From positions 1-64,000 of the IMG/VR virus record IMGVR_UViG_3300034198_023063: a stretch of 64,000 bases of DNA; one strand, given 5' to 3'. The notes beneath the pieces are model-generated. The model saw nothing but the letters and a program-made list of their open reading frames with translations. It was not told the DNA's origin and searched no databases. Both the position numbers and the translations under genes were made by a program. Shown here piece by piece: positions 2 to 29,700 of the stretch (positions are counted from its first letter, which is position 1; the number at the start of each line of letters is the position of its first letter). Source of the DNA: a virus.

Positions 2-3000
2 AATACTAGATATCAACCACTAGCTTCTTTCTTGCCATTTGGAATGAGATTCGAAGAGGGGGATGAAATTTCTAAAATGATTGGTTTAGCCAAAGGTTAT
101 GTCCCTAATTTTGCAAGAGAAAAAATAATCGCTGCCGCATTTAAAACCAAAAAAGGTAATATTTTTACTGGCTCATATCATGGCGCAGCATATGAAAAAA
201 TTCCAGAAGGAGAAAATATTGATCTTATAGATGGATTTGTCACTAATTCTGGAAAATTTGTAGACAGAAAAGAAGCTGGTTTAATAGCTCAATCCGCTCA
301 TCAATTATATAATAATGGAAACAATAGGAAAGCATTTGCATCGAATAACTATAAATTAGACACAGCGTTTTTGCCTCTTCCTCAAGAAAAATATCGTAGC
401 CGTGGATATATTCCTAATTTCTCTGGGCTATCTCAATCTATATCTAGAGAAAAACAAATGACAGGCTTGCCAGTCTCTCAGATAATGGCTCATTTTGATG
501 GCAAAGGAAATCCAATTGCTGTAACAAATAAAAGAGATGAGCCAAATGGCCTAAAAGATGTGCCGAATTTTGCCCCGCCAAGAGGAGGAGGTAGAGGTGG
601 AGCTAGAGGTGGTAAGGGGTCATCATTAACTCCTGAAAGGGCTATTATTTTAACTCAGGTATTAAATGTAATAGCTGGAGCGGTAGAAGCTGGAGTTAAT
701 GTAGCTGCTCAAAATGAATCTATTTCCCCCGAAACAGCAAGAACTGTTAGTTTCGCTGTGGCTGGTATTAATGCTTTGATTGGGATATCTGCTGGCCTTA
801 AGTCTGTCGGAGGATTTAAAAAAGCTACTGGTCTTCAACGAACTGCTGCCATAGGTTTGCCATTAGTAGCGGCGGCGGCAACTGCTGGAGTTGGGTATCT
901 TGGGTCTGAATCTTTAAAGAAAAACATTTCTCAACAAAAAATCCAAAGAGAATCCGAAAGGGTAGCTCAACAATTTTCGGATCTAACAAATAGTACTCAA
1001 GAACTTAGTGACACTTTGTCTAAATTGGATGCTGCTTATAAAGATGTGTCCACAAATCCAGACGAGTTGCTTAAATTAACAAAAAAATCTACAGAACTTA
1101 CAACTAAGATTTCTAAAACAAACCCTCAGTTGTCAGCTAAATTAGCTGCTGAACCAAATCTTGGTCGTCGCATAGACTTAATACAAGAAAGTAATAAAGA
1201 AGCGACAAGCCAACAAACAGTAGACCAAGAAATCTTAAAACTCAGAAGCCAAGGAAAAGTTTCTAATAAAGAATTAGAATCTTCTTTTAATCGTTTGATA
1301 GGTGGAGTTGGAGAAGATATTTTTAAAACTAAAGAAGGGTCTGTCACAGAAGCTAATTTGCCAGAATTTTTAAAAAAGAATAAATTAGAAAATTTATCTA
1401 AGTTTTTTGACGAGCAAGATAAAGAAGTACAATCCAAATTAAGACCAGCTTTTACTAAAGCTCTTAACAGCCAATTAAAATTAAATAACGAAGCTGAAAA
1501 ATATAATAAAGAAGTAATTAGAATTCAAGGAGACCTATTTAAATCTAGAAAAAAGGTCCAAACAGAAAAAGAGCTTAGAGATATAAATTTAGCAGGAAAA
1601 ATTTCTAACATAGAATCGTTACAAGATTTTGCTCAAAATTTTGGATCGAGGGCTGCTATTTCAGCTAAGGTTGACGCATATAAAACTATTGAAGGATTGA
1701 AGCCGACTAATCAATTTAAACAGGCTATAAATACACAACTCAGAAATGGAAATTTTTCACCTGAAATAACTAGAAAATTATCTTCTATAGAAGGCCCCGG
1801 AGATGTAGCAAAAAAACAATTAGAAGAGATAGCTGCTACTAAAAATTTAACCGAAGAACAAAAAGAGGGTATTAAAAAATTAATAACTCAAAATCAAACT
1901 TCTACTGATGAATTAAAAAAGATCTCTGATATTTCAGAAATAAATAAAAATAATCAATTAAGATTATTAACGATTCAAGAAAAATTGGGTTTTGGTGGAG
2001 GAATTAAAACATCTATAGACGCCAAATCAAGAGTAGAATCTATCAATGCGCCACTCAGAGGAGCTTTAGAATATCAAATTGGAGCGCAATTAGGTTCTCC
2101 AAGATCAATGATAGCTGGCCAAACAAATTTCTTAAAATCTATCCAAGGGCTATATCCCGGCTTAATAGATAAAACTGGAGGGTTAGCTATGGCTTCTCAA
2201 CGTTTATCTGCTTTGAGAATGGGTGACCTTCAGCTTGATTTGATGAAAAATGCTGCCACTGCCGGAAGAATGGGAATGCCTGATGTAGCTGCCGAGTTAA
2301 TGAAGAAGGCTTTCGATCCAAAAGCTTTGGCGGAAATAGCAAAAACTCAAACTGAAACTGAACTTCAAACTGGAAAAACGCCAACTGAAATTTCTAATGA
2401 ATTAAAATCTGCATTTGATTATTTTTCACAATCATTAAATGAAACATTCAAAGGAGAGGCAGAAATAAGACAAAAAGAGAAAGACGTAGCTCAACCTTTA
2501 GAAACAGTCACTAAAACATTTGAAAATTTTCAAAGTGATTTAACTAAGAAAATAGAAGCAGCATTTCAAGAAGCATTTGGAAAAAATGGGGTAGAATTTA
2601 AAAACTCTACAATTGAAGCCCCAAATGCTACGGTTAATGTTTCATCTGCGGCTCCAGCACAATCAGCGTCGAGTGGCGCACAACAGGCGGAAGCTAATAA
2701 AGCGAGCATGGGTGGTTTTAGTAAAGGATTTATTCCTAGTTTTTATAACCCCCTAAGGGAGGCAATACAACGAGAAAATAAATACGTTCCATTTAATTCT
2801 ATAAGAGTAAATAAGAGTGATAAATTAATAAATCCAAACAATCCTTTTGGATTAGCAGTTACAAATACTTTTGATGAACCTAACGGTTTAGCTAGTATAG
2901 GTTTAGCTTCTGGAGGTTTTGTTCCAAATTTCGCAGCATTTGGTTCTAGGGCCGCCTCTGAAGCGAGAAACAACGCTAGGCTTGGAAAACTATATGTTTG

Positions 3001-6000
3001 GGATAATATAGACAATGGCTTTAGAAAAGTTAATCCAAGCGGAACAGTTGACGCTAATTTAATAGATCCAAAAGATTTACCAAAAGGAGCCAGAACAATA
3101 TCAACTGAGCTTTCTCAAGGAGGAGGAAAAAAATCAATAATTCCATTAAAAGATCCAAAAGTTACTAAGCTTGATGAATTAAGTCTTCCGGGCATAGCAA
3201 GATCTCAACCTATAGATAAAATTCTTTCTAGATTAGACAGGCAGGGAAGATTAACCCCTAAGAATTTATTAACAGAAATTAATAAAGTTTCTGGAGGAAA
3301 AGATGTTGTTGTTAAAACAGGTTTCGGAGAGTCTAATGTTCAAAGTAAAGGTGTTTATGGATTAGGCGGAAAATTATCTACCGCTGATGCAAGATCTATT
3401 ATCGGGAAATACACTAGAGGAACTGGCAGTGGCTTTTTTACTCAAGAAAAAGTTCCAACATATTACAATGAATTAAGAGTCCATGTCGCAGTAGACGACA
3501 AAGGAAATATAAAAATAATAAAAGGAGGAACAATTTTAAAGGCAACAGGATTTGATCCCTCTGCTGGTCCTTCTGTAAAAGCTTATACAGACGCAGGTCT
3601 TTCTAAGAATGAAGCTATTAAAATGTCTAAATCTTTTAGAAGATCTGCTGAAGCTTCAGCTTTTGACGCTATAAGAACTTTAGTAAAAACTAAAGGAGTA
3701 AAAAATGCATTCTTTGGAGTAGACGTAGGTGGAACCACTTTGCAATCAGCTTTAGATGCTGGTGTTAAAACTAGAGAATTTTATTCTGGGGGAAGAGGCA
3801 GAGTCGGCACTATTGTATTTGAAGTAAATCCTAGCGATAAAACTGGATCTACCGGATTTATGGGCAGAGGTTTATCTGAAAAATTAGTAAAAAATATTTT
3901 TGGTCAAAAACCTGCTCCTTCAGGATTAACAACAGGTTCACCTGCGATAGGAATTAATCCGACAGGAAATCCAACGTATCCTCCGATAATAAGACCATCG
4001 CTATCTCCTTCTGGGGCTCCATTAGCTTCAGGTCTTCCCGCTGGATTTAGCGCTAAACCAAGTTTAGCCTCTTCTATTATAAATACTGTTAAAAATCAAG
4101 CTACGTTAACAAAAAATTCATTAGTAGCGGGATTCCAAAATATGGCTGGTAAAGCTGGTACTTTTGCAACTAATTTACCAAATATAGGTAGTGGATTAGG
4201 CTCTAAATTTTCAGGATTGGTTAGTGGAGCGAAAGGTTTAGCTGGAAGCGCAGGTTCTAATTTAATGTCGTTTGGAAGAAATGCCTTAGGAAAAGCTGGC
4301 ACTGGCCTTACAATAGCTGGTTCTTTAGGTTTAGGCGAAGAAGCTTATGAGGCTTTAAAGCGCGGAGAGTTTGGAAATGCCGCTGTTTATGGTGGAGCTT
4401 CTGTAGGTTTAGGTATTGGAGCGTTAAATAATATTTTTGGAAAGCAACCTATTTTTAATTCTAGAGCTGGTAGATATGTAGATCCTACAACTGGTAGATT
4501 TACGAGCGCTCCAAAAACTGGTTTATTTGGAAAATTTGCTGGAGGAGCATCTGGAATAGCATCAGCATTACTAAGTGGCGCTCAAACGGTTGAAGAAATA
4601 AAAAATAAAAAATATGGTAATGCGGCTGTTTCTGGCGCTCAGACAGCTCTTTATATCGCTTCTGCTTTATCCAAAAAAGCTACTGGAGCTTTTGGTATAG
4701 CTTCTGGTTTAGGTTTAGCTAAAGACATAGCGAACGCAAAAAATTTCGAGTTAGCTTCTGATTGGTCAGATGTTTTATTTGGCAAAGCAGAGCAAGGCGG
4801 AGGAATTGCTGATTTGGTTGGTACTGCTTTAACCGCTGCTTCTGGTCCAATTGGCGCTGGTGTCGCTACAGCTAAAATTGGATATAGAATTGGTAATGTA
4901 ATAGAAAATAAGCTGGGTTTAGGAGACAAACTTGGAAATGTTATGGCTGGCAGCGAAGCTGCCACAAGAGCCGAATTCGCTTCTCTTGGCATGGCCAAAT
5001 CCATCGCTAAGAAAGACGTTATAGAAGGAAAACAATCTGCATCTAAATATATAGAATCAAAGAGAAGAGATTTAGAAGAGTTAAGCAAAACTGGAGCTTT
5101 TAAAGGAGATGTTATTGACACCTTAAATAAAGATTTAGATCAAATAGCCAGTAAAAGAAAAGAAAGAGAAAAAGCCATCGAAGAGAAATCTAGAACTGAC
5201 GCTATAATCGCTAAAAGAGCTGAAGAAACTAAAGCGAGAGAAGCTGGCTTCAAAGCTGAAGATGAAAAACGAAAAGAAGATCAAAATAAATTTGACGCTT
5301 CTTTAAGGGGAAAAATAGTAGATGGCGTAATTAGAAACGAAGAGCTTTCTGGATTACAAACATCTAGGGATAAAGCTTTATACATAATTGAGCAAGAAAA
5401 GAGATTTGGTAAATTTTCTGAAGCTGATTTTGGTGAAAATAAAGGTTTGTACGATTCTTACAAAAACTACTCCAAAGAGTCGCAAAACATTAAAAAGAAA
5501 GAAGATAAATTCAATGCCGAACTAATGAATCCAGAAGCTGCTGGAGGAGTGGCTTATAGAACACAACCTTTTAGAGAAGAGCAGCAAAGAAAAGTCGAAG
5601 AGCTGGCTTCTTTTCCAAAAGATGCTTTTGAAGAAGCAGCAAGAAGAAGAATGACTGTTGAAGACGTAATGGAAGAAAGGAAGAAGGGCGCGACAAAGAA
5701 TAAATTCAACGGATTCATTCCAAACTTCGCTTATCGCAGAGAGAGGTCTAGTGTATTAACAAGCCCAGATTATGTTGGGTATAGAAATGCTATTCCAGAA
5801 CCTTCTAAATACTATAAAAATGTAGTTAAGAATACCGCTGAAATAGAAGTGCCTGCTGTTGAGGTTTACAATAGAATGGGTCTTTTTGGAGCACAACCTA
5901 AGAATGCTTCTGAAAAATATGCTATTTTGAATCCAGCGCAACAAGCCCAATTAGGTTATGCTGCTAATGGATTTATTCCAAACTTTGCGCCAGAACAATT

Positions 6001-6208
6001 TGCTGGAGCAATAAGCGAGGCTTTGCAACAAGCCTTATCTCCAATGTTTGAGAAAATGGGGTCTTCAGTATCTAATTCTAACGTTATCAATGTTCATGAC
6101 CAAAGATCTTTTGATGTGACATCGGATAAAGTAAATGGAGTAATGGAATTCTTACAAAAACAATTCCCGACACAATTTGCAAGACAAATGGGTCCAAATA
6201 AAGTATAA
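2..6208 (+). CDS. Tape-measure-like giant virion protein, 5' partial
   Basis: The reading frame is open to the left window edge with no stop, so the true start lies outside; residue numbers here count from the TTG at 32. Seen: hydrophobic stretches near 204-226 and 273-292, a long charged helical region about 305-650, a Gly/Ala-rich region about 1370-1640 containing a small repeat (GNAAV at about 1448 and 1529), another charged helical region about 1690-1880, and a short C-terminal tail. A G-aromatic-[IV]-P-[NS]-F motif occurs at about 22, 125, 177 (as DVPNFA), 899, 962, 1894 and 1980. The phrase AVTNxxDEPNGL occurs at about 163 and 942. Length, helical content and its place just before baseplate-type genes support tape measure. 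Residues 1040-1290 resemble an ATP-grasp fold and 30-100 a DGFVT/FVDRKEA module, so it could instead be, or also be, an injected multidomain protein. Confidence 0.72.
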   Translation, partial: NTRYQPLASFLPFGMRFEEGDEISKMIGLAKGYVPNFAREKIIAAAFKTKKGNIFTGSYHGAAYEKIPEGENIDLIDGFVTNSGKFVDRKEAGLIAQSAHQLYNNGNNRKAFASNNYKLDTAFLPLPQEKYRSRGYIPNFSGLSQSISREKQMTGLPVSQIMAHFDGKGNPIAVTNKRDEPNGLKDVPNFAPPRGGGRGGARGGKGSSLTPERAIILTQVLNVIAGAVEAGVNVAAQNESISPETARTVSFAVAGINALIGISAGLKSVGGFKKATGLQRTAAIGLPLVAAAATAGVGYLGSESLKKNISQQKIQRESERVAQQFSDLTNSTQELSDTLSKLDAAYKDVSTNPDELLKLTKKSTELTTKISKTNPQLSAKLAAEPNLGRRIDLIQESNKEATSQQTVDQEILKLRSQGKVSNKELESSFNRLIGGVGEDIFKTKEGSVTEANLPEFLKKNKLENLSKFFDEQDKEVQSKLRPAFTKALNSQLKLNNEAEKYNKEVIRIQGDLFKSRKKVQTEKELRDINLAGKISNIESLQDFAQNFGSRAAISAKVDAYKTIEGLKPTNQFKQAINTQLRNGNFSPEITRKLSSIEGPGDVAKKQLEEIAATKNLTEEQKEGIKKLITQNQTSTDELKKISDISEINKNNQLRLLTIQEKLGFGGGIKTSIDAKSRVESINAPLRGALEYQIGAQLGSPRSMIAGQTNFLKSIQGLYPGLIDKTGGLAMASQRLSALRMGDLQLDLMKNAATAGRMGMPDVAAELMKKAFDPKALAEIAKTQTETELQTGKTPTEISNELKSAFDYFSQSLNETFKGEAEIRQKEKDVAQPLETVTKTFENFQSDLTKKIEAAFQEAFGKNGVEFKNSTIEAPNATVNVSSAAPAQSASSGAQQAEANKASMGGFSKGFIPSFYNPLREAIQRENKYVPFNSIRVNKSDKLINPNNPFGLAVTNTFDEPNGLASIGLASGGFVPNFAAFGSRAASEARNNARLGKLYVWDNIDNGFRKVNPSGTVDANLIDPKDLPKGARTISTELSQGGGKKSIIPLKDPKVTKLDELSLPGIARSQPIDKILSRLDRQGRLTPKNLLTEINKVSGGKDVVVKTGFGESNVQSKGVYGLGGKLSTADARSIIGKYTRGTGSGFFTQEKVPTYYNELRVHVAVDDKGNIKIIKGGTILKATGFDPSAGPSVKAYTDAGLSKNEAIKMSKSFRRSAEASAFDAIRTLVKTKGVKNAFFGVDVGGTTLQSALDAGVKTREFYSGGRGRVGTIVFEVNPSDKTGSTGFMGRGLSEKLVKNIFGQKPAPSGLTTGSPAIGINPTGNPTYPPIIRPSLSPSGAPLASGLPAGFSAKPSLASSIINTVKNQATLTKNSLVAGFQNMAGKAGTFATNLPNIGSGLGSKFSGLVSGAKGLAGSAGSNLMSFGRNALGKAGTGLTIAGSLGLGEEAYEALKRGEFGNAAVYGGASVGLGIGALNNIFGKQPIFNSRAGRYVDPTTGRFTSAPKTGLFGKFAGGASGIASALLSGAQTVEEIKNKKYGNAAVSGAQTALYIASALSKKATGAFGIASGLGLAKDIANAKNFELASDWSDVLFGKAEQGGGIADLVGTALTAASGPIGAGVATAKIGYRIGNVIENKLGLGDKLGNVMAGSEAATRAEFASLGMAKSIAKKDVIEGKQSASKYIESKRRDLEELSKTGAFKGDVIDTLNKDLDQIASKRKEREKAIEEKSRTDAIIAKRAEETKAREAGFKAEDEKRKEDQNKFDASLRGKIVDGVIRNEELSGLQTSRDKALYIIEQEKRFGKFSEADFGENKGLYDSYKNYSKESQNIKKKEDKFNAELMNPEAAGGVAYRTQPFREEQQRKVEELASFPKDAFEEAARRRMTVEDVMEERKKGATKNKFNGFIPNFAYRRERSSVLTSPDYVGYRNAIPEPSKYYKNVVKNTAEIEVPAVEVYNRMGLFGAQPKNASEKYAILNPAQQAQLGYAANGFIPNFAPEQFAGAISEALQQALSPMFEKMGSSVSNSNVINVHDQRSFDVTSDKVNGVMEFLQKQFPTQFARQMGPNKV

Positions 6209-11724: not shown

Positions 11725-14700
11725 ATGGCTGCGGTAAATAAAAATAGTATAATAAATATAACCAGAAGAATAGGGACAACGGTTGAAAATTTATACAACA
11801 AACTATTCAACGGTTATATATATAACATGTCACTAGACGTAGGCTACGATGGGCAGCCTACAGTTCTAACTTTAAACTTGGCTCTTAATAGAACAATAGA
11901 TCAAGTTAAAGTAAATTCTGATGTTATAAAAGATAGAAAAAAAGATATCACTTATTTCAAAAATTTAATAGCAGCACAAAAGTCTGTCCCACAAAATTCT
12001 GTTGGTAATTTAGGAAGTGTACCAGCAGGAAGCCAAATTGGACCAAAAGACAACATTTCTCAAATCTCAGATAAAGATTTCAATATAGATCAAAATTATA
12101 TAGGAGTTACATGTTCTTATGATATTGGAATTTATGATGGGCTTGGCAATCCAACTTATTCGTTTAAATCTTTTAAAATAGTAAGTTTTTCAATAAGTAA
12201 GAAAAACGATCAAAAAATATTAACTTTAGTTCTGAAGGATAATTCTTTCGTATTAGATAAAGTTTATGTCGGTTTATTGGGAAATCAAGTCGCCATAGAT
12301 GGCAGATCGGAATCTTTAGCTTATGTAAGTGGAATTAAAATTTCTTGCCCTCCAGTCGGCAGTAATTGCCCAGCGGGATTGGTCACTTTAAATAATCAAC
12401 CACAATACCTGCATTTTTCAAATAGTAAGTTTAAAAATAGTTATCAATCTCATTTAGGTACTATAGATTTAAATGCAAACGCTGGGAATGTCGGGTCAGA
12501 CAGAAGAGTTTCTTTAATTAATTTCCAAGTTGGAGACGATTCCTCTCAAAACAAAAAGCATAATTTTGTAACAATATCTTCTATAGATCCAAATAAAAGT
12601 ATATTTAAAGGATATGGCGCTGCGATTATTTTAGGGGAAGAGGAGTTCAAAGATTCGCCATGCGGATCTGCTGAAGTTTATTACTCATTTGAAACCTTAA
12701 TCGCAGCAATGAAAAAATTGGGAATAGTTATTGCTGAAAATAATAGACCTGCTAATTTAACAAATACATCTGCAAATTATGATTCTCTCCAAGATAAATC
12801 TAGGGGAAAAATAAAGAAAAATTATCAAGGAACTTTAAGGCAAGTTTTGAATCAGTGGTGCGATGACTATGGTTATTCGTATTGCGTTGATTACACAAAA
12901 ACATCTGATACGTCTTTTGTCTTAAAAGGAATAGATAAAACCTCTGGTTTTTCAAAAGAATTAATTCTTCAAACAAAATTAACAATGGAAGATTTGGAGT
13001 CTTCTACTAGTAATTCTGATTTTGTTATTAGAAGTGAAGATTTTTCTTATGATTTATCTCAGCAACAGTTAAAACTTTTTTCGTCTTACTACTCTAAAGA
13101 TGCTAAAGATAAAACTTTAAATTATAAAACATTGTTTGGTAATGAAGCGTTTAATAATATTAGATTAGATGAGTTATATCCTGATATTTTTGGAAATAGA
13201 ACAGATAAAAAAGACTTTTCTGGCTCCTATAGAACTTACGAGGATGTTGTTATTTCTGCTATTTTAGGTAAATATTCTTCAAGACTTAGGGAGATATATA
13301 ATTATAGCATTGGAGCTTATGGTGCTTTAGGATTTATTCCATTTAATGGGATTCCGAATTCTTCACAAATACCATTGTTAGCTGCTGACGCTTCTTTTTC
13401 ATTTATAGAATCTATATCTAGCGTTTTAGATTATCAAAGTGAAAACTTTTTTGCTTCAGACGGAACTCCATTATACGATTTAACCCTTGGATTTTATAAT
13501 GAAGAATTAGCTCAAAATGTTTTAGCTATGGAATCATTTATAGCTGATTTTTTAGGCAGATATTATTGGACGCCTGAATTAGAAATGTTAGACGGGGAGT
13601 CTGGAAATACTGATTTTTATGCAAAATATGAAGTTGGCTCTAGTGTTCCAGTACAAAAAATAATGGCGGGACAATTATATCAACTTGACGTATTTAAAAA
13701 AGCTAGATATTTGTTAAATAGTATTGCTAGCGTGTTTAGTGGTAATAATGATAATTATTTTAAGGCGTATTATCAGTTGGCTGACTTAGCTGCAAACGCT
13801 CAATCAATATGCTCTCAGGTGGGACAAGACTTTATAAATTTACAAGGCTCTCAGGCGAAACTTAAGAAATTTAGATTTTTTTACGAAAGAAGTGGTGCTA
13901 CATATGGGGTAATCCAAGATTTCTTAGAAGATGTACTAAAATTAAAATATACAATAGCTGGATCAACTACAGCATCAGCACAAGAAATAGATGTAGCTAC
14001 AATTTTTGCCCCAGTTTTTAAAGAACTATCTCCAGTTTCTTTAGGTCTTTTGCAGGCGGCTATGCCAATTAATATATCTAATGTTGCTATAGGATCTTTT
14101 AAGTTTGGTGTTTTGTTAGGTTTAAAACCAGCTTATCAAGTTTATAATATTTCATCTCAAAATGCTAGGAATATTTTAGAAATACAAAATAGTATTTATA
14201 ATAGATGCTCAGAAATATTAAAAATAAATACTACTGGAGTAAAAGATAAATTAATAAGAAATAAGAGAAGTTGCAGTAAAACTTTATTATACGAAGTATG
14301 CGTTAGAAGTTGCGAAGATTCTGGCAGAAAATCATCTAACGATAACGCTGTAAGTTTTGCGTCTGGACCAAATCCATACTTTTGCTTTGCGGTAAAAATA
14401 ACTAGGGATCTCAGAAGCCCTGCGGTAGATAGTATGGTTTTGCAGAATGTTTATAAAACAGTTATTTCTTCTAATACCCCATTAAGTTTAGACGGATTTA
14501 CAGATAAGCCAAGCCAAATATTAGTGACAAGCCTTAGGCTTAAAGCTGAGAAAGGATTGACGAATATATCCTATGATATTTTTTCTAAAACTGCATCTTA
14601 TCAACCTCAATGGGAATTGATAGTAGCTCCTTCTCAAGAAAATTATTCAATTCCATTATATACAGAAACAACAACAGAAACATTTTTGCCAGCTAGAAAT

Positions 14701-15231
14701 TACGTTTTAGGTGGACTGGAAAGTCTTAATGATGTTATTAAAATAATAGAAAATCCTAATTTTTCAGTAGACGTAACTACAAGCAATCTAACGCCAAATG
14801 TAAGAGAGCTTTATGGGGATGAAACAACGCCGCAATATGTTTCTGCGCCAGTTTCAGTGGGAAATCCAAGCAGTTATCCTGTATTTATTGAGTATCAAGG
14901 CTACGAAGGAACAAATCCAAAATATCAATTTAGAACTTTAAGTGAATTTCATAATAGTCTGAAAGCTTATTATGATTCAAAAAATATATCTTTATCACAG
15001 CCAAATATAAAATTTTCTGCTGATATTTTTTGCAGTAGCATTCCTTCTCAATTAAAAGATCTACTAACGGTGCAGAATGGATTGACGAAATTAAATATAA
15101 ATTTAGCCGAGAATGGGCTTTCTATAAATTGTTCTTTTGAGAGTTCTCCAACTTTAGCTTTGAGCCAAGAATCTTTAATATTAAAAAATAGACCAAATAT
15201 TAAATTAGTAAATCCAAATTTCTTCAAATAA
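11725..15231 (+). CDS. Putative baseplate hub / tail-associated protein
   Basis: 1168 residues. The leader GAGATAAGGATT before the ATG holds one of the few Shine-Dalgarno-like AAGG sequences in the window. Two stretches resemble the hub family (gp27 / gpD / XkdQ-type): a TLVLKDNSFVLDKVYVGLLG block near 165-190 and, near 315-400, a YYSFETLIAAMKKLGI helix followed by NYQGTLRQVLNQWCDDYGYS and FVLKGIDK, the way hub domains pair a short helix with a following beta domain. The protein has many cysteines for a virion protein. The stop overlaps the next start by one base (TAATG). Hub is a pattern-based inference; a general tail structural role is safer. Confidence 0.5.
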   Translation: MAAVNKNSIINITRRIGTTVENLYNKLFNGYIYNMSLDVGYDGQPTVLTLNLALNRTIDQVKVNSDVIKDRKKDITYFKNLIAAQKSVPQNSVGNLGSVPAGSQIGPKDNISQISDKDFNIDQNYIGVTCSYDIGIYDGLGNPTYSFKSFKIVSFSISKKNDQKILTLVLKDNSFVLDKVYVGLLGNQVAIDGRSESLAYVSGIKISCPPVGSNCPAGLVTLNNQPQYLHFSNSKFKNSYQSHLGTIDLNANAGNVGSDRRVSLINFQVGDDSSQNKKHNFVTISSIDPNKSIFKGYGAAIILGEEEFKDSPCGSAEVYYSFETLIAAMKKLGIVIAENNRPANLTNTSANYDSLQDKSRGKIKKNYQGTLRQVLNQWCDDYGYSYCVDYTKTSDTSFVLKGIDKTSGFSKELILQTKLTMEDLESSTSNSDFVIRSEDFSYDLSQQQLKLFSSYYSKDAKDKTLNYKTLFGNEAFNNIRLDELYPDIFGNRTDKKDFSGSYRTYEDVVISAILGKYSSRLREIYNYSIGAYGALGFIPFNGIPNSSQIPLLAADASFSFIESISSVLDYQSENFFASDGTPLYDLTLGFYNEELAQNVLAMESFIADFLGRYYWTPELEMLDGESGNTDFYAKYEVGSSVPVQKIMAGQLYQLDVFKKARYLLNSIASVFSGNNDNYFKAYYQLADLAANAQSICSQVGQDFINLQGSQAKLKKFRFFYERSGATYGVIQDFLEDVLKLKYTIAGSTTASAQEIDVATIFAPVFKELSPVSLGLLQAAMPINISNVAIGSFKFGVLLGLKPAYQVYNISSQNARNILEIQNSIYNRCSEILKINTTGVKDKLIRNKRSCSKTLLYEVCVRSCEDSGRKSSNDNAVSFASGPNPYFCFAVKITRDLRSPAVDSMVLQNVYKTVISSNTPLSLDGFTDKPSQILVTSLRLKAEKGLTNISYDIFSKTASYQPQWELIVAPSQENYSIPLYTETTTETFLPARNYVLGGLESLNDVIKIIENPNFSVDVTTSNLTPNVRELYGDETTPQYVSAPVSVGNPSSYPVFIEYQGYEGTNPKYQFRTLSEFHNSLKAYYDSKNISLSQPNIKFSADIFCSSIPSQLKDLLTVQNGLTKLNINLAENGLSINCSFESSPTLALSQESLILKNRPNIKLVNPNFFK

Positions 15232-17419: not shown

Positions 17420-20400
17420 ATGATAAGAATAACAAATGCTCAAAAAGTAGCACCTAAACAGCCAACAACGCACACTCAGCATAATTCTTTAGCTGAAGCG
17501 TTTAATACTAGAATATTGTCTGGATTGGGGGACTGCGCTTGGAGAATTTTTTATTATGCTTATTCTACATTTAGAGGATTAAGAAATCCAGATGGAGACT
17601 CTTATCCAGCTCAAGATGAGTGGTTTAAATTTTACGCACACATAGAACCTAAGATAATGTGGGGAAAATTTGGATGGCCAGAAGTTCCCGCTGGAGAAGC
17701 TCAAGGACCAAACGTCGCTAACCCATTCATGGCTTGGATATTTGGAAATAACTCTAGAACAAAAAAGGCTAATGGAGAAAGCGATGATACTAAAGATAGA
17801 ATTCATGGGTACTGGTCTGAACCAATAAGGTTAAGCGGTTTGGAGGCTCAATTGCCGATGCAAATGCCAACTAAAACTAGTGGTGATCCAAATTTACATA
17901 GAGTCTGGAGCGATTCAGAAATACAAAGAGGATGTTGCGCTTTTTATCCGAATTATTTATATTTACCAAGAAATGCTTTACAGCCATCAACAAAGGAGCT
18001 GCAATTAGTATCTTTAGGTATATGCTCCGCAGCTAGAAGACATTTGCGATATGTGATGGAAACAGTGTCAATGGGAAGATATGCCTCAAGTTATGTTCCA
18101 GATACAGATGGAAAAGGGGGAATATTTAGAAAAAAGAATGCTGTTAAAGACCAAATCGAGCAGGCAATGTTTTATTATTTATCTTTTTTTAGAGGGACCG
18201 AGGATCAGAGGTCAAAGCATGACAAAGTAAGAAAAAATGTAAGAACAGAAGGATTTAATTTTGAATCTTTTTTTGCTAGACAATTTTTATTAGCTCCGAA
18301 TTATTCTAGACCAAAATATGAATTAGATCAATCAGGAAAAGTAAAAAAGGATACATTAGGAAATAATTTAATAAAATATGATAGCATAGGCTATCCTGAG
18401 CTTTTTCCTGAAAATAAAAGTTTTATTTGGAGCGTCCCTTTGAGTACAACAGCGTCTTCAAATGTAATACCTATTTCGACAGATTACTATAATAAAGCAA
18501 TAGATGAAAAATCAATTAACGATGGCTATTTTTTTAAAGATATAAATAATTCGATTACTTTTGATACTGACCCTCAAGATCCGGGATTTAGTAACGAAAG
18601 GACAGGAAGAAATAGATTTTGTTTATCGGCGATATTTATACAAACATCTGATATAGCATCAAGCACAGTAAATGAAGCTGGTCAGTTATTAAACGGATTA
18701 TGCATAGACGTATATTTATATGGAAAATTATACGACACAATTCCTCTCAACAATAATGAAGATAAGTATATTGTGTCAAGGAGGACCGGAGCAGTTAATA
18801 ATTCAATAACAGAGCAACAAAATAAATATCAAATTTATCAATTTAATAGAATTCATTATTTTCAATATCCCGTCAAAGGTTTAGTTTCTTTTAGAGTAAG
18901 AAGCTCTAATGGTTCAATAAATTTTGGCAAAAAAATAGATGATAAAGATAGTTCAAATAATGTTTATTCTTTAAATAATTTTAGTATATTTATAAATACA
19001 GCTCACGTTTTCGATATGAAGCCTACAGTGGCTGATGCTTATGTAATGATGCGGGTGGCTACTACAGAAGGCGCGGGAACAGACGCTGGACAAATGGATC
19101 CAGTTGGGCATTTCAATGGAGAAACTTGCAAAAGCGTTTTTCAAAATTATATAAAATATGGAGTAGCTTATACTTTAAATAAAGGTAAAACTTTATATCA
19201 AAATGATTCTTATGTAAGCGCAAATCCAGTTTATGAATCTGCTAGAAAATTTATAACTAGCAATATTAGAATGGCTGATAGAATTTCTTTAGTAGACTAC
19301 GAGGTGGATTCGCAAGGTAGATCTGTTTTATATTTTAGTCGTTATGCTTATGGAATGAAAAATAGCGGAGTAGATATTTTTAGAGGAATAGCGCCATCAA
19401 TAACTCCAGTTGGAAATAGAACAATTTTAGGTTCTAATACTGAAACATTTATTCCAATTGTCAAGGGAAAAGAATATATTGTATTGGATTTATCAGAGGC
19501 AAAAGATGGTTATATATATTATAGAAATAATGACTCTAGCGTTTCAAAATTAACTCACGGTAAAAAATTTAAAGGTGGAGACTATTATTTTGCTTCGGGT
19601 TTTTCAAATACTACTATAGGTATTTACGAATTAGATGGAATAGTAGCATCAACTTTAATAAATGAATCCCCCAAAGCAAGTATAAAAATCAAAGTTGGAT
19701 CAGAAGATTTTAATCAAATATCAAATGGTAATATTTCAAATGAGTGGTGCATGTTTATGTCTTATAATTTGTACCATTGGTCTAATAGTTCGGCTTGGAA
19801 ACCAGAAATATATGGCGATATCATGGGGGCTTTTAATGGCAGGTGCTTAACTTCAAGCGTTTCTTTGGAATATTATAGAACAACTTCTAAAAATGTAAAA
19901 AAACATTTGGCAAATGTAACTTGGAGGCCGTACGACATTCCTTTGGTTGTAGAGTCTCCGTCTGGATATAATTATATAGAAAGCGCAAATACAGATTTAT
20001 CTAAAACTGGTGGAGCAGATTATTTTTATGCTCAAAAATTCGCAAAAAGTTGTCAAATATATGTTCCACCTTATCAAATTCAATCGACTTCTAGAATAAA
20101 TCCTTATGACCCAAGATGCGATATAATAAAAGTAGTTTTAAATACTAGACTTTCAGCAAGTAGCATTAATGGCTCAACAGCAGCGATAAAAGGAAAAGTA
20201 AGCGAAAACTTAGATTATTTTACATATAAAGCTAACGCTTTTGAGTTTAGATCAGATGAATCTGCTGCCATAGATTATGTTTTGCATTATTTGACGGGTA
20301 GATCTTGCCCAAGGTCAGTGATTGGAGATGTATCATTAGATAATAACTTTTTTTGGTCAAAGCAGAGACCGTTTGGGTGCTGTTATCCAAGATTTTATTT

Positions 20401-20692
20401 TGTAAAATTAATTCCAAAAGTATCTGCTGGAACAGTAATGTATTCAGATCATTATACGCAAATGGAATATTATCTAAGAGCTATGTGTAATGGTTTTATA
20501 AATAGAGATACTGAAATGGCCCCAAATGAAATACAAAAAATAATATCAGAAAGAAATACAGGAATTGATGTCGTGGGAGGGTATGATTCTGCTGTTGGAG
20601 ATTATTTATTTGAAGACTTAATGCGAAAATCTTATGATATTTCGACGAATAATTATGCACCAATGCCTACAAACATGACCAGCACAGCATAA
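17420..20692 (+). CDS. Large virion structural protein
   Basis: 1090 residues, with unusually many aromatic residues and cysteines in the first 230 residues (for example RGCCAFYPNYLYLPRNA near 170-190). I do not recognise the family. Near residue 685-730 there is a short beta module (YIVLDLSEAKDGYIYYRNN ... KKFKGGDYYFASG) of the sort that fibre proteins carry in series, and the same kind of module is repeated in the 3265-residue protein that follows. The C-terminal third contains a helical YYLRAMCNGFINRDTEMAP stretch near 1015-1035. No membrane segment or signal is seen. A structural role is inferred from its place in an unbroken run of virion genes. Confidence 0.55.
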   Translation: MIRITNAQKVAPKQPTTHTQHNSLAEAFNTRILSGLGDCAWRIFYYAYSTFRGLRNPDGDSYPAQDEWFKFYAHIEPKIMWGKFGWPEVPAGEAQGPNVANPFMAWIFGNNSRTKKANGESDDTKDRIHGYWSEPIRLSGLEAQLPMQMPTKTSGDPNLHRVWSDSEIQRGCCAFYPNYLYLPRNALQPSTKELQLVSLGICSAARRHLRYVMETVSMGRYASSYVPDTDGKGGIFRKKNAVKDQIEQAMFYYLSFFRGTEDQRSKHDKVRKNVRTEGFNFESFFARQFLLAPNYSRPKYELDQSGKVKKDTLGNNLIKYDSIGYPELFPENKSFIWSVPLSTTASSNVIPISTDYYNKAIDEKSINDGYFFKDINNSITFDTDPQDPGFSNERTGRNRFCLSAIFIQTSDIASSTVNEAGQLLNGLCIDVYLYGKLYDTIPLNNNEDKYIVSRRTGAVNNSITEQQNKYQIYQFNRIHYFQYPVKGLVSFRVRSSNGSINFGKKIDDKDSSNNVYSLNNFSIFINTAHVFDMKPTVADAYVMMRVATTEGAGTDAGQMDPVGHFNGETCKSVFQNYIKYGVAYTLNKGKTLYQNDSYVSANPVYESARKFITSNIRMADRISLVDYEVDSQGRSVLYFSRYAYGMKNSGVDIFRGIAPSITPVGNRTILGSNTETFIPIVKGKEYIVLDLSEAKDGYIYYRNNDSSVSKLTHGKKFKGGDYYFASGFSNTTIGIYELDGIVASTLINESPKASIKIKVGSEDFNQISNGNISNEWCMFMSYNLYHWSNSSAWKPEIYGDIMGAFNGRCLTSSVSLEYYRTTSKNVKKHLANVTWRPYDIPLVVESPSGYNYIESANTDLSKTGGADYFYAQKFAKSCQIYVPPYQIQSTSRINPYDPRCDIIKVVLNTRLSASSINGSTAAIKGKVSENLDYFTYKANAFEFRSDESAAIDYVLHYLTGRSCPRSVIGDVSLDNNFFWSKQRPFGCCYPRFYFVKLIPKVSAGTVMYSDHYTQMEYYLRAMCNGFINRDTEMAPNEIQKIISERNTGIDVVGGYDSAVGDYLFEDLMRKSYDISTNNYAPMPTNMTSTA

Positions 20693-20704
20693 CCATAATA
20701 ATAT

Positions 20705-23700
20705 ATGAGCGCATTAAATGATAATAAGGCTTTTTTAAGTGGGGTATTAACTGGAGAATCATTAAATTTTGATACTTCAGTTTTTGGTCTTTGGGTTTCT
20801 ATATTTCAAAATGTTAATTATAGTGAAAATGGTTACTCTTACTTTCAGCCGTTAGCGACAGACATTACCGCTATAGATTTTCCTATTACTGGTAAAAGAT
20901 TTTCTTTATTTAATTTTGATGGAAAGTATTCTGATGCAAGATTTATAATATCCTCAGGTAAAAAGGGAGATGCTGAATATGATACTACTGTTCCTATAGC
21001 GGATATTTCAAATTCTTTTGTATCAGGTTTTAAGCCATTAATTATAATGCCAAATGTTGATTTCACGGGCAGCATTTATAGAAGAACTGAAATCACTGGA
21101 TATAGAAATTCTGTAATTGGAAATTATCAAACCCTTGGTCTTTCTGGGGAAGATTGGCAAAAAACATCTATACCAGTAAATGTTAGCGATGACGTTAAAG
21201 AATACGCTTATTTTGATACTGGATACTCTGGTTACTCAAACGAAGTCGCTACAAGATATAAATTTTTATATGATGATCCGTCACACTCGCAAAGACAAAA
21301 CGTATCGATATTTGAAATACCAATTCAATATGAAGCTGGATCAAATTTTAAATATAAAATATCTAGAAAAAGCGATCCATTTGGAGAATTTTATACCCCA
21401 GAAATAACTACTGATGGCAAAATAATTATTGATTACTCTCAATATAAAGATGAAGTAAATAAGCCAGTGGAAGCTGGATTAAATTATAAATTTACTACAG
21501 TTTCTAAATTTTCTTTCCCACAAGGCGTTTTTGAAGATTTAGACGATAATCAAGTTGTCACTAGGCCGATTAATGATTCTTCTATAACTGGACTGAAATT
21601 AACCAGAAGAAAGGAAGGGGATGATACTTATTATGATTTTTATTTGTCATCAACTGGCGTTAATAATACTGGAGCTACTTATGATGGTATTTATAGAATA
21701 ACATTTAATGTAGATAGATATAACACAACAAATAAAACAGGAATAGTTGGTTATGTGATGACCGGCATCAAAACTGGAGACGTATCAACAAATGTTTTAG
21801 TTAATTTAGGAATAAATTCTGGAGTCTACCCTAGGGTCATAGATACTCAAAGATATCAAACTTCAGACATATTAAATTTAGCAAATTTAGAAGAGCTTAT
21901 TGTTAATGAGGAGTCGGCGCAGGCTTTAGCTTCTGATACTGATTTTGAAAACGAAACTAATTTAGCAAAAAATTTACAAGATAATATAAAGAAAAATGTA
22001 GATTTTTTAAACGAATTGCTAAAAGATGAGCCACAAAACCCAACGCAAAATACAACATCAGATCAAGTTTTAAGAGGCCAAATTGATTCTCTTGAAAATT
22101 CTAATTTAGATTCTGCAAATCAAAATCAAATTATAGAAAAAATTGCTCTTCCAAAATTTACGTTACCAAAACAAAATGTAGATAAAAATTATTATAATAA
22201 TTATATAAATTCTGGAGAAGAGTATGTCGCGGTTCCTTTGGCTAATTACACTCTTCAGCCAAGTTATGTTTTTTATGGAGATCAATATGGACAACTAGGA
22301 TACTATATAGAAGAAACTGAATATTCAACATATAGAATAGTTGTTAATTCCACCAGCAATGGAGTTTACGTTTCAAATACTTCGGTTTGCAAAGGAGACA
22401 CTGCTATATATGCAAATATGCCATACTCAGAAGATGTATATTTTGAAAATGGTATTTGCACAAGAATTCCAGAAGATGGAATAATAGATAAAAATAATTA
22501 CGCAACACAAGATAGCTGGAAGAATGCTGTTAATTATTTTTACACAAAAAATTATTTATCTTCAGTAGATGTTTTTCCTACTAGTTCAGATCAAGATGCA
22601 AATTTATCTATATCAAACGCAATATCTAAAGCTTTGCAGCAAATAGGTTCTTGCACGGGAGATTTTCTAACAGAAAACTCAAATGCAAAACCAATATTAT
22701 ATTTGGAAAGAGAAGTTTACGTTGAGCCATACGATAAAGATCAAATAACTCTGCTAAACAATACTTTAAATTCGGGGTCTTTCGTATCTCCAAGTGGAGA
22801 ATTAGTGAGGCAACAAGAAGAAAAGCTTTATTGCGTACAAATTTTTGATACGTCATTTGCTAAAGATAATAGTTCATTTTTCAAGGCAGCTAATGATTAT
22901 GAAGAAAGTTTAACTTTTAAATCCTTTGCTCCTTATAAAGATTCTGCTGGAAAAGATATCGTGAGTTATGGTGTCGGAGAAAATTTTGGTACAGTATATT
23001 ATAATGATCAAAATAAAGATGAGCAAGATATTTATAGATTAGAGTATGTAACTGGACAAGCCTTCTCTTATAATAAAACTTCTAATTTTAGAGCTTGGAA
23101 TGGATTAGGAAGTCAAACAATATCAATATCAAATCAAAACGATAAGAATTATGGCTACCACTTGTATGGATATGAAAACGCAGATGATGTTTTAACTTTT
23201 GTAAAATCTAACATTTTAAATGGGGTAGATGTTTCACCAACATCTTTTACAAACTATGTTGTATTAAAATTTAATAAACAAGGATTTACCGATAGCAGTT
23301 ATATTTTTAATGACTCTAATGGAACTAATTATACAGCAATAAATACTTCAGTGGTTGATTCTTCTGGAGCTTTGTTATCATCAAGTTATGTGTTTTTTAA
23401 TATACAAAAATATTCATACTTGGCAAGAGCGGTAACAGAAAATAATGTTTGGTATACCAACAAGTTGATTCCAATAAATGATGATTCATATGGCGCTGAA
23501 GATCAGTTTGGATTATTTGCTCCTAGATTTTTTGAAGACGCAACACAGGAAGCAAAGTCTGCGGCAGAACAACTTTTTGTGTTTCCAAATGGGCCTTCGA
23601 CTTCCAAAAATTACGAAGGATCTCCGTTAGTTTACGATCATCTTCCTAGCATACCTCAAGGAGTATTAAATAATAAATTAGTCATAACAGAAGAAAGAAA

Positions 23701-26700
23701 AAATTATAATATAATAAATAATGATTTCATATTAAATTTTGTTTTGGAGGGAAGGCTTACAAAAGAACTGGGCCTTAATAATGTTAAAAATTATAAAGAT
23801 TCTAGAAGACTTAAAATAACAAGAGTAAGATACAATGTATATTCTAAAAATTTATTGATTGTTGGTGACGCTGGTTTTCCATATGCATTAGCATTAAATA
23901 CAGGTTGGGAATACAAACTTCAATACAGGAAAAAAGGAGTAGGTTCAGCTTGGAAAGAGATGGATTCTACCTCATCTTTTACAAATAGTAAAATTGCAAA
24001 TGTAAGTTCATTTCTGAATCCATATTTTTATAAATTTGAAGATTTGATAACGCCGAACTATCTTCCAACTGTTGGGTTTTTGACTAATTTACCAAATTTC
24101 TTAGATGATAGCCAATATCAATTTAGAATTTTTAAATACGAAAAATTTGATTCTGGTTCAGATTCGGTTGATATAATAAGAAAAACAAACTTTTTGCCAA
24201 TACAAGTAAATTGGGCGAATGATAACAAATCTTCTTATTTTAATATTTACCAATTAGATAGCGGCAATAATTTAAAACTAATAAAAACAGAAAACCAAAA
24301 AAGTTCTTCTACGTTTGCTATTCCAAGCGTTAAACAGCAATATTTTGATTTGGGATTGGCTAATTTTTCCAAAAATGGATCAGGATATTATGATATAATA
24401 GTTTCTGGCGCTTTGCCATCTACTCAAGTTAATACTGGATTAGCGGGTTCTGTATTTATAGGAAATCCAACTATAGGAAATTCCACCGCAGATCCAAGTG
24501 ATCAAAATGATCCATCTGGACCAATAATAATAGATGTAATTAATCAAACATCTAATACAAGCGGTTATAATTCAATAACTGGAGTGACATATGCTCCTCT
24601 TATAAATTTTAATAATCCAGAATCTAAAAATGCAGATTTTAGTATTAACGCAAATTATAGTGGTTATTATTTTATATCCGATGGTAAAAATGCTACCTTA
24701 GATAACTCTTTAGTTAATGGTTTTGAGTGCTATGTTGCAAATACTGGATCATCAACCAATATTTATTCTAATGGCTCAGCTTATTCTTTAAATAATAATA
24801 AGGTAGCAAAAGTGATTTTGCCTTCAGTAACAACTACGGACTCAATCCGAGCTTTACCATCAGCGCAAGTAAGCGTTGATTATACTAATAATTATGTTTA
24901 TATAAAAGAAAATTTTAATTATAACACAGGAGATTTTGAAGCTAGCGCTGGGACAAAAAGTTCAATTTCTACAATTATAAATGGATCAAGTTCTTCTGTC
25001 ACATTAACTTATGGGACTGGAACGATATCAATTCCAGCTAATACGAGTTATAAACTGCAATTCGATAATGGTTGGGATGGGTCTGCATTCGCCTCTCAGA
25101 TTCTTCAATTAAATTCTTATAAAAATGTAGATACTCAAGCTTCTTATATAAATTCTTCTGGTGGTTTAGTTAATTTAAATTATGATTCTTTAATATTAAA
25201 TACCCAAGACTATATTGATTTACCAATTTATAATTTTGCAAAAAATAAACTATCTGTAAATGGATTAATAAATTTAAATGCAGATTCATTTTATCTTTTG
25301 AGTGGAAATCCGGCTGGAACAATAACGGCGACTGAAAAAGATTATTTTGATTCTATAAAAATATACTTAGATGGAAGCGAGGGGGAAAATAATATTTTTG
25401 TATTAAAAGATGATACTGATATAGATGTGTCTTATTTCCAGTTTGGCAATCGAAAAGAGTATTATTTTATAAAAGACAACAATATACAAAGATCTTTAAA
25501 TATAAAAATCAAAAATGGAACCTCGGAGAAATTAATTCCAAAAGGATCACCAGATTTTAAATTAACTGTTAAAAAAGATACGTTTTCTAATATAACTTAT
25601 GAGATTTTATTTCCATCTTCAGATTTTACTACATTAATCGGAGACGAACTTGAGCAATTAATAGTAATAAAATCTCAAAATAGTCATATTATTGATTTGG
25701 GATATATAGAGGGCTCGCTAAAATCTAATGCTTTTGTTTATTTTGTTAACTCTTCAAATACAAACGTAGATTTTCAAAGAGATTTCAAGAGCGTCATGAC
25801 TTTATCAAATGGCGAAATCGCTAAAGTAACTCTAGAAAAATACAATCTAACAGCAAGAATTACAAAAATAAATGAAGCAAGAAATCATTTTGAATTTAAA
25901 ATAGATCCGCAAATTCATTTAACAGAACCTTCTGGGGTCAATATTTTGAATTTAAATTTTTGTGGCGCTGATGTTGTTCTGCCGCCTCCTTCTGATTTTT
26001 CAGCTAAAGAAACTTTTATAATTTCTAAAAATAGATTAGCAGCAAATAAAATAGATTACAAAAAAATAGAAAACACTCCCAGCACAGCCATATCTTCTGA
26101 AGGAAAATTCTCACAAAATAGCATTGTATGTAAAATTTATAAAAATTCATCTTCTAGTACATACCCTGCCGTAGATCAGTCAGAAATATCTGCTGGCTAT
26201 TATTCCCCTTTCAGAGAAAGAAATACTCCAAAAGATGATGTTTATGAAGTTTTCTATATTAAAGATGCTGATTTAAAGTCTTTTTCTATAAAAGATTATT
26301 TCGAAAGATCAGCATATTATTATGGGAAAGTTTTGTTGGAGTCTGAAAAGGAGTTTTCTATTTATTCTTATGATGAAAATAATAGCAATACACAAAATGT
26401 AGAAAAAAAGGGGGTTAGTTTTGATTTTGATTTCGATTTGGGTGAAGTCATAGATGGCGCACTAACTACAAAGCTGGTTGAAAACGATTACCAAATAATT
26501 AATTCTAATAGCGAAGACGACGGTGTTCAGACTTTAGATAATTTTTCAGTTGGTCAATATTGCATAAATTTCGCTTATGATAGCGTAGCTCTTACTGGTC
26601 AGAGCGTATCTTTGATTAAAAATAGAGGAGCTTTTATAAACGAAAATCAAGGGTTGAGGGTTTTCCCAATTTATAATGAAGATGAGTTTTTTATTGCAGA

Positions 26701-29700
26701 AAATATAAATCAAGAACTTAGATCTTCTTACACAAATTATAGAAAAGAAGATGGCGTTAAGTTGTATACTTCATTTTTTTATCAACTTAATAATTCCACG
26801 GATATTGAATCAGTATTTCTTCCGTATTCTACTGATAAAAAATATATTATAGAAAATTTATCTTCTAGGGCTTTTGATATAAAAACTCTGGATTCAAATT
26901 CTTTGGTCACAACAATAAAACCAAACGAAAAAAAGACATTCTCTTACTCGTCTACATCTTGGATTAGTTCAAACTACATTGATAGCGTAGATGGATATTT
27001 GCCCACTGATAGTAGTCCTTCTGTAATTAAATCTGAAAATCAAAATAATGAAAAAGATTCTGCGCACCCATTTATTAGTTTATTTGGAACAGCTAATAGT
27101 TTAGATGGTATAAAAGGTAATATTTTTGAGTCATTTTGTTATGATGAGGCTGGTACTTTAAAGTCATCGATAAGTTTACCAAATGGAGAGCAATCTTTAA
27201 CATACAATTTAATAGACTGCGATGAGGCCAAAAATAATACCACAACTAGCGATGGGTCTTCACAGTATATGTTTTGCTATGGAAGAGGAGGAGCAAAAAC
27301 TATATCTGATACAGATTTTGTTTTAAATGATTTTTATCTTTTTATTAAATATGGAACTAGCTACATTAAAAATAAACAAGTAGGCGGAAAGTTTTTAAGT
27401 AGAATTAGTAGCGAGGGTATTGATAATCCAATTTTAACTATAATAAAAAGAAATCATTTTGATTTGTTGAGTTTATTTATTTCTGAAAATGGATATGCCA
27501 CATCATTACCGAGAAATTTAAGGTCTGCTACGCCAATTCCGTTTTATAATGAGTTGCAGACTTATTACTTGCCAAATTTAAATATTACGATACAAAAAAC
27601 AGAAGAAGAAGTAGAAAATCCTTCCCTTGGCTCTTTATGGCTGGGCAAAAAATTTGTTTTTATTAATTTAGTAAAAGTAAACTCTCAAGCCCCAAACAAG
27701 ATATATAATTATACAGATGAAACTTATACTGACTTGATAAATACAAGTGGAGAAAATTCTGTTGCTGTTTTTGAGGTGGTATATGATGGGACAAATTATT
27801 TATGGAAAAAACAAACTTTAAATGTTCCTAAAATTCAAAATGTATACGTTTCTTTAAAAAATGTAAAAGGCCTCGATTCAACTTCTTCTTCCAATGTTAC
27901 AGATGGTAGAGAGATGGTTTATTTGAGTAATTTTAGAACTTTTAATGTTTCAATAGATAGTTTTGCTGATTATAAATTTAACAATTTTTATTTATATAAT
28001 TCCTGCAACTATCCTTTAGAGATTTTGTTTAATGGCTCTAGAAGTAGTTTAGACGCCAACTCTCCATTCGTGAAAGTTAGTTATGATGGATCTTTTATAC
28101 CAAAAGAGATATCATATAATCATACGACTAATTTTGTAGAGACTGAATCTATAGATATAAGAATTACTTCAAATACAGATACCGATACGACCTTAATAGA
28201 GCGAATTGCTTATATTTATCCATCCCCAGTAATAGGGGCTTATGCAAAATTAAATTATAGAACATACTCTACAAGTGCGGGGATAACTACTTATTCTGAT
28301 TTATCATCCGCATTATTCGTATCGTCAAGTAATGGTTGGTCTAAAATAAATTTATCAGATTATTTAAGCGATAATTATTGCGATCTAAATGTTAGTAATT
28401 TAGAAAAATATAGCCCTGATTCAAGATTATTTATTTACGGATCTTCTGTTAGGAATCAGTACTCTCAAAGCTTTGACACATACACTCTTAGAGTGGTCGC
28501 GCCAGAATCAAGATCGACATCGTTTTTTATTTTTAATAATACGGTTAATGATTTAAAAATAAAATTTGTAACATCTAATTTTACTGACTTCGGCGGAATT
28601 GGGCGGTTAACAATTAATTTAGCTAAAAACAGAATCTCTAAAGTTTATAAAAACTCAAATGGCAAACTATCTTTTGAAGTACTAGAAATCCACCAACGGG
28701 GCAGATACTATCTATCTAATAAAAATAAAAACATTAACTATATAAACGGCTCAGAAATAGAACTTTTTATTGATGCTTGTGTGCCTTCCGATTTAGACTC
28801 TCAACCTTTTGAAATATCAAATGATAATATAAATTGTTTTCTTACATTGTTACCAACAAGTTCTGAGTATACTAGGATTTTTTATAATCTTTATCAAGGC
28901 GCAAATGGTAATTTAGTTAAAAATAGAGACACAAAAGGCGATTCGGTCAATAATTTTTCCGTAGTCCCTTTTGATACGTCGCAAAGTCTGGGATGGCTAT
29001 CTTTAAATAATTCACAAGATTACCAAAAAGATTTAATTACTCCATTTTTGGATATATCAGTAGCAGGGCATTATATTTTAACAAACTATAATTATTCTGT
29101 AAAAATAACTCCTAGTGCTTCAGATATCTTTTTAGTAAATAATACATCAAAAAATATTAAAGTTCAGCAGGGAGATTCTGATTATCAATTATATAGAAAT
29201 ACTGTTTTAATTGTAAATTCTACATCAAAAAGATATTTAAAAAAGGGAAAAAGAAAAGACGCCTTTTATTCTGTATTTAATCCTAAGACTTTAGTGAATA
29301 CTCAAAGAGAGATCAGTTTAGTATTGGGAATAGAAAGGCATCAAGAAATTTTGCCGATTTATGACATAGATTTTGTAGATGTCCCATCTTATCTAAAGTT
29401 ATATTCAAGATATGGGCAAACTCAATCTGTTTACTTGAATTTTCAAGATTATTATTTAGGCAAAGATATTCCATCAGATTGCCCAGAAAATATGCTTGCT
29501 TACGAGGTGGGAACTGGGCATGAAACCATATATAAGTTTTTATTCTTTGATCCTTCTACTAATTATTATACTTTACCGGGCATAACAGAAGGTGAAGAGT
29601 ATTTAGTGGATTTTAATGAGGGTTTATTCTTCAATTTATTATTGGGGCAAGGTGGCGACAAGTTTGGTTCAGTTATGTATATGGGTAAAAAATACTATAA

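Follow-up and report, generated by a model that had tools for sequence, protein, structure and literature searches.

The locus described here raises the question of why one short motif, G-[FY]-[IV]-P-N-F, recurs along a single very long phage protein. It lies in a 64,000-nucleotide stretch of viral DNA (the window; positions 1 to 64,000 of the 80,757-base IMG/VR record IMGVR_UViG_3300034198_023063), in which bases 2-6208 of the plus strand translate as a single open frame of 2,068 residues. A preliminary description, made from the sequence alone, had called the product tape-measure-like and had proposed that its seven motif copies mark module borders, as docking points for a tail protein or as sites cut by a phage protease. 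From comparisons with relatives and from structure predictions, we conclude that the tape measure protein (TMP) of this phage is probably a cargo carrier with an array of exchangeable modules bracketed by the motif.

Homologues point to a tape measure protein without its N-terminal part

The record starts at window base 1, and the 5' part of the frame is therefore missing. The TTG at nucleotide 32 is not the start; the residue numbers of the preliminary description, which counted from this TTG in a frame already open where the contig begins, are shifted by about 10. With this constant offset, all seven motif copies lie where it put them, in frame +1, and the phrase AVTNxxDEPNGL does occur twice, at residues 173 and 952 (163 and 942 in its numbering).

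A close homologue (L002/L003), 46% identical in the best segment, aligns over window residues 1-2016. It is 3,511 residues long, and window residue 1 corresponds to its residue 1544; it thus extends about 1,543 residues further upstream, and the window holds the C-terminal part only. The first ~400 residues of L002 match PF10145 (PhageMin_Tail, 3.9e-26), and its N terminus also matches ten PHROG tape-measure families (best, 4.7e-48). Because this homologue carries both kinds of match, we read the window protein as the C-terminal part of a TMP, and the earlier label of a tape-measure-like protein is borne out through homologues. A third family member, L126, has 3,198 residues. In the record of L002, a terminase gene lies ~17 kb upstream of the TMP gene on the same strand, and the closest matches of this terminase, in Bacillus and other phages, share only 23-29% identity with it. 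Genome matches in GTDB were four contigs of three metagenome-assembled genomes, which suggest Verrucomicrobiales, Flavobacteriaceae, and Halobacteriovorax as candidate hosts, and a direct tblastn search of the window TMP against isolate phages gave nothing useful.

The motif is a family trait conserved at the protein level

The strict pattern occurs 6 times in the window protein, against none in 2,000 composition shuffles (0.0004 expected), which rules out chance or composition as the source of the copies; looser copies, [IV]PNF[AS] without the G[FY], are also present. We scanned IMG/VR with a degenerate DNA pattern back-translated from GG[FY][IV]PNFA and recovered at least 120 stretches, all counts being lower bounds. 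Among the matches listed (at least 120), the motif stands in an open frame at all loci, usually as two to nine copies per very long open reading frame (ORF), the early copies being situated around residues 550 and 630. Of the 108 dereplicated proteins among the matches listed, 79 are recognized by a profile of the TMP N terminus, and nearly all of the others are cut at the locus edge. The 48 pattern matches in 11 whole viral records (1.42 Mb) fall, within each record, on one strand and in one cluster, the TMP gene; the reversed pattern gave 0 matches in the same records. Nearly all of the IMG/VR matches listed lie in multi-motif TMP genes, the class in which the preliminary description had recommended searching for the motif, and a literature search on motif strings found no paper on it. 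Elsewhere, L047, L097, and L107 hold a single GGFVPNFA in an unrelated, non-TMP protein of ~1830 residues, about 200 residues from its end; this copy is probably due to chance.

Over 374 sites, the motif profile reads A-[AS]-x-G-[FY]-[IV]-P-N-F-A (core [IV]-P-N-F-A), and no conservation extends beyond positions -3 to +6; that of G, P, and N is inflated in this profile by the regular expression, which demands or constrains these letters, and whole-unit alignments agree with the profile. The motif is conserved at the protein rather than the DNA level, since its copies use different synonymous codons at near-background rates: the same-codon rate at the motif is modestly above background (0.56 versus 0.38 for P; 0.67 versus 0.60 for N), and the DNA strings of the seven window copies are each different. 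Copies within a protein tend to share the same F/Y/L variant (identity, 0.69 versus 0.45 shuffled) and the same I/V variant (0.69 versus 0.58), and background use of F and Y does not explain the F/Y harmonization. Such harmonization is suggestive, as it is expected of coevolution with a phage-specific partner or of descent within a lineage.

In L052, L100, and others, the two motifs around residues 550 and 630 enclose a constant unit of ~85 residues, 'GTMVANTSEYIVPNFAGG..AIFNxDM..GLPxGAKKI'. It resembles an element, 'VPAMLxxGEYVxxKxAxxxxG', near the TMP C terminus of the same proteins, and the motif may have descended from a TMP element of this kind.

Cassette indels have their borders at the motif

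Related TMPs were aligned pairwise, and insertions of at least 60 residues with conserved flanks were listed. In 20 of 21 distinct indels of the motif region, both borders lie at most 10 residues from a motif, whereas random placement gave a mean of 1.4 and a maximum of 7 in 5,000 trials. An aligner drawn to the motif is ruled out as the source of this result, which persists when the alignments are repeated with the motif masked (15 of 17 indels at motifs versus 1.1 by chance). The indels come from related proteins and are thus partly dependent on one another; the contrast is nonetheless large. One of them separates the window protein from L002: each border of the 'DGFVT' cassette lies 7 residues from a motif, and the two flanks are 76% and 76% identical. 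This cassette has a weak match to PHROG 839 and matches a hypothetical protein of the jumbo phage FLC9 over 31 residues (58%). A cassette, consisting of a motif and a module, thus behaves as a unit that is acquired, dropped, or exchanged at the motif.

The motifs are predicted to lie in linkers

An AlphaFold model of the commonest cassette with both flanking motifs, built from 39 sequences, has a mean predicted local distance difference test (pLDDT) score of 83; its fold spans residues 20-222 (pLDDT mostly ~90), and the motifs, at residues 13-19 and 232-238, fall outside it in stretches of mean pLDDT 56-69. A second model covers window residues 885-1310 and was built from 33 sequences. It is confident (82-93) over a recurrent unit that contains the AVTNxxDEPNGL phrase (the "DEP unit"), and the two motifs of this unit lie in low-confidence stretches (~33 and ~43-58); a long module of ~330 residues, covered by only three sequences, is not resolved. 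The preliminary description had set motifs in linkers against motifs buried inside domains, and in both models they stand outside the folded modules. The motifs are accordingly predicted to be linkers, with the reservation that low confidence can also mean a missing partner. Their role as module borders is supported both by these predictions and by the gain and loss of cassettes.

Among 41 intact proteins, a hydrophobic segment is predicted ahead of the array, near residue 430, in 37; the array itself is free of such segments in 40, and a second one follows the array in 16. This arrangement is suggestive of an array that could form a soluble loop once the TMP is in the membrane.

The modules are diverse and mostly without a recognizable signature

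Among the matches listed, 267 intermotif segments (median, 165 residues) form 91 clusters. Pfam scans of modules returned SNase, GNAT (Acetyltransf_1), and a cytidyltransferase-related C-terminal region above the curated cutoffs, all in modules of relatives; P-loop families matched weakly, and no peptidase family was found in a scan of 78 module representatives. Pfam scans named only a handful of modules, most of which have no recognizable enzyme signature, and confirmed no enzyme domain in the modules of the window. HAD-, kinase-, and ART-like modules are candidates that we read by eye from the residues. A single HEXXH was found in the cassette regions of all arrays. In the commonest cassette (57 members), E, D, and (E/D)xK are conserved and follow one another as in PD-(D/E)XK nucleases, with fitting secondary structure, and the cassette is tentatively assigned to these enzymes; a Foldseek search of its AlphaFold model against the PDB and BFVD returned no match at E ≤ 0.001.

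The array regularly ends in the DEP unit, a conserved, motif-bounded stretch of ~52-77 residues found in most relatives, with the consensus G[FY][IV]PNFA..L..AI.RE..AG.P...IR.....L....NP.GLAVTNTRDEP.G...[IV]PNFA. Three module profiles, that of the DEP unit among them, had no match among PDB sequences, and tblastn found no match to the DEP unit in the isolate phages or plasmids searched. The ~330-residue module that follows in the window is 85% identical in L002 and 71% identical in L126, most other parts of the protein being far less alike; either recent transfer or strong constraint would account for this identity. Its earlier description as ATP-grasp-like is tentative: Pfam, PDB sequences, and isolate phages gave no match, and its AlphaFold model is poor.

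Features of the locus

The features of the TMP frame are collected in Table 1.

Table 1. Features of the TMP frame in the window, in order of position
Feature	Position	Strand	Basis
Probable C-terminal ~2068 residues of a TMP, 5' end lost at contig end	2..6208	+	Open frame from record base 1; L002 homology
'DGFVT' cassette (motif + ~95-residue module), missing at the same place in L002	95..403	+	103-residue indel
Motif copy 1, GYVPNFA, residue 32	95..115	+	Translation, motif search
Motif copy 2, GYIPNFS, residue 135	404..424	+	Translation, motif search
First DEP unit (GYIPNFS...REK...NPIAVTNKRDEPNGLKDVPNFA)	404..574	+	Unit alignments
Motif copy 3, DVPNFA, without G[FY], residue 186	557..574	+	Translation, motif search
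Hydrophobic segments (residues 214-300), then long, probably helical TMP body	575..2686	+	Hydropathy; helix from composition
Motif copy 4, GFIPSF, residue 909	2726..2743	+	Motif search; AlphaFold pLDDT ~33 there
Second DEP unit; predicted compact helix-strand-strand-helix, pLDDT 82-93 after motif	2726..2914	+	Alignments, AlphaFold
Motif copy 5, GFVPNFA, residue 972	2915..2935	+	Motif search; AlphaFold pLDDT ~43-58 there
Conserved ~330-residue module, formerly 'ATP-grasp-like', fold unconfirmed	2942..3931	+	Homologue identity, AlphaFold
Glycine/alanine-rich, then charged C-terminal region	3932..5710	+	Translation
Motif copy 6, GFIPNFA, residue 1904	5711..5731	+	Translation, motif search
Motif copy 7, GFIPNFA, residue 1990, 79 residues from C terminus	5969..5989	+	Translation, motif search
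C-terminal tail common to L002 and L126	5969..6208	+	Homologue comparison

Downstream of the TMP frame lie large unmatched late ORFs, which, together with the terminase upstream in the record of L002, place the TMP gene among late structural genes. Very large proteins are encoded on the late strand at window positions 20705-30502, 11725-15231, 17420-20692, 30504-33602, and 33608-37108 (3265, 1168, 1090, 1032, and 1166 residues, respectively), and individual PHROG scans of the 1168- and 1090-residue proteins gave no convincing match. In a related phage, a 2720-residue protein is encoded upstream of the TMP gene (L133:11183-19345). The minus strand of the window at 37369-63998, and likewise L004, carries a cluster of sugar-nucleotide and glycan genes, which suggests surface-glycan remodeling by the phage. 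It includes genes for a GDP-mannose dehydratase, a DegT aminotransferase, a dTDP-sugar epimerase, a GHMP kinase, a phosphoheptose isomerase, a heptose kinase/adenylyltransferase, and glycosyltransferases, accompanied by genes for a DnaB-like helicase, a PolC-type polymerase, a ribonucleotide reductase, and a UvsX-like protein.

Discussion

Our working model is that the array would follow the PhageMin_Tail core and its hydrophobic segment (near residue 430 in full-length homologues) and precede the part of the TMP that spans the tail, the window keeping the end of a series of independently folded, exchangeable modules. Each module would be bracketed by the linker motif, to which a TMP-specific partner (a tail protein, a chaperone, or other TMP copies) would bind, thereby holding every linker in register. 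Carried in the tail, the array would pass into the cell together with the TMP during infection, and we infer this delivery because TMP ejection along with DNA is known from other phages (PMC10713586). Several points weigh against this model. The window itself, which begins at a contig end, lacks the TMP core, the motif-binding partner is putative, and several catalytic labels were assigned from short signatures, with no fold match found for the commonest cassette. Moreover, the harmonization of motif copies within proteins is also explicable by common descent or duplication, and all family members are known from metagenomic sequences alone.

As for the motif itself, we slightly and tentatively favor a docking or registration clamp over a processing site, the odds being close. 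Under processing, a phage or autocatalytic protease would cut each linker, either within the particle or within the host, and free the modules as separate effectors. The presence of a motif in a predicted disordered linker at each cargo border agrees with such cutting, as does the length of the conserved stretch, ~10 residues, which suits protease subsites; TMP processing is known near the C terminus in T5-like phages (PMC10713586), and processing is also presumed for polyvalent proteins (PMC5512222). We nevertheless consider it somewhat less likely than docking. The motif was confined to TMP genes in the 11 whole records, which disfavors a general head-protease site, and no protease family appeared among the PHROG matches of 20 proteins from the terminase-to-TMP region of L002 and from L134, most of which matched nothing. 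Two observations in particular incline us to docking: the arrays are devoid of a zincin HEXXH save for one, and constant units contain half-motifs at intervals of 20-40 residues, so that cutting there would shred the units without releasing anything.

There are two further explanations. If the motif were an ordinary flexible linker of lineage-specific sequence, the modules would be structural parts of the tail rather than injected cargo, a reading compatible with the scarcity of enzyme signatures and with the inferred nature of injection. We find it improbable, since about 10 positions are kept in 100 divergent proteins, which would not be expected of functionless linkers, and some modules match soluble enzymes (SNase, GNAT, and the cytidyltransferase-related region). 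Still more improbable, in our opinion, is a mere recombination scar or landing pad at which cassettes move by homologous recombination, with no role for the protein sequence: it would fit the gain and loss of cassettes, but same-codon rates are only modestly above background, the codon variation among copies disfavors a DNA recombination site, and constant units, which are not exchanged, retain motif copies.

The family under study is one of tape measure proteins and represents a cassette-array, 'polyvalent' tape measure. It resembles the PhageMin_Tail and SPbeta YomI TMPs (PF10145; PHROGs 4211, 14917, and 28) in having an N-terminal core, a hydrophobic segment, and a long C-terminal body encoded by a very large ORF, and differs from them in that the DEP unit and the window TMP have no match in the isolate phages searched. 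TMPs of that kind are not known to carry more than a few enzymes, which are usually peptidoglycan hydrolases. MARTX toxins hold effector arrays that are cut by their own cysteine protease domain; they are similar in the way they work, with variable effector modules in series between constant regions, whereas a protease feature was not found here, Pfam detecting no peptidase domain in the modules scanned.

The polyvalent proteins of phages and conjugative elements combine many unrelated enzyme domains in one polypeptide that is thought to be delivered with DNA (PMC5512222). The TMP array would work likewise; the Pfam-confirmed enzymes here are single modules in relatives. Zincin peptidases are frequent but not obligatory in polyvalent proteins (36%; PMC5512222), as compared with one HEXXH in all of our arrays; moreover, PMC5512222 does not mention tape measure proteins, and we found no repeated delimiter motif described there. 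Tme (PMC11126660) and Sle1 (PMC13277306), TMP-related effectors of contractile injection systems, share a TMP-like body with an exchangeable functional domain that is ejected from a tail-like particle, as would be the case here; they have one C-terminal effector domain in bacterial injection systems, in contrast to an internal array in a phage. Finally, a survey of domain shuffling in phage proteins flagged TMPs as possibly mosaic and did not confirm genuine recent mosaicism (PMC10684548), whereas we observed module exchange with precise borders in TMPs.

We put forward the possibility that, in this large, uncultivated phage lineage, the TMP is a multieffector delivery polyprotein, whose conserved 7- to 10-residue delimiter would be a universal address that allows the insertion of any cargo domain and by which one dedicated phage partner then holds or releases it. 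If this is true, the ruler of tail length can carry an interchangeable arsenal into the host. The arrays hold about 90 kinds of module in about 100 sampled phage proteins, most of them without an assigned function, and the domain exchange within TMPs, with its defined borders, is what the published survey (PMC10684548) could not confirm. The motif is also a search key, which finds a hidden phage lineage in metagenomes and yields candidate effectors that are already parsed.

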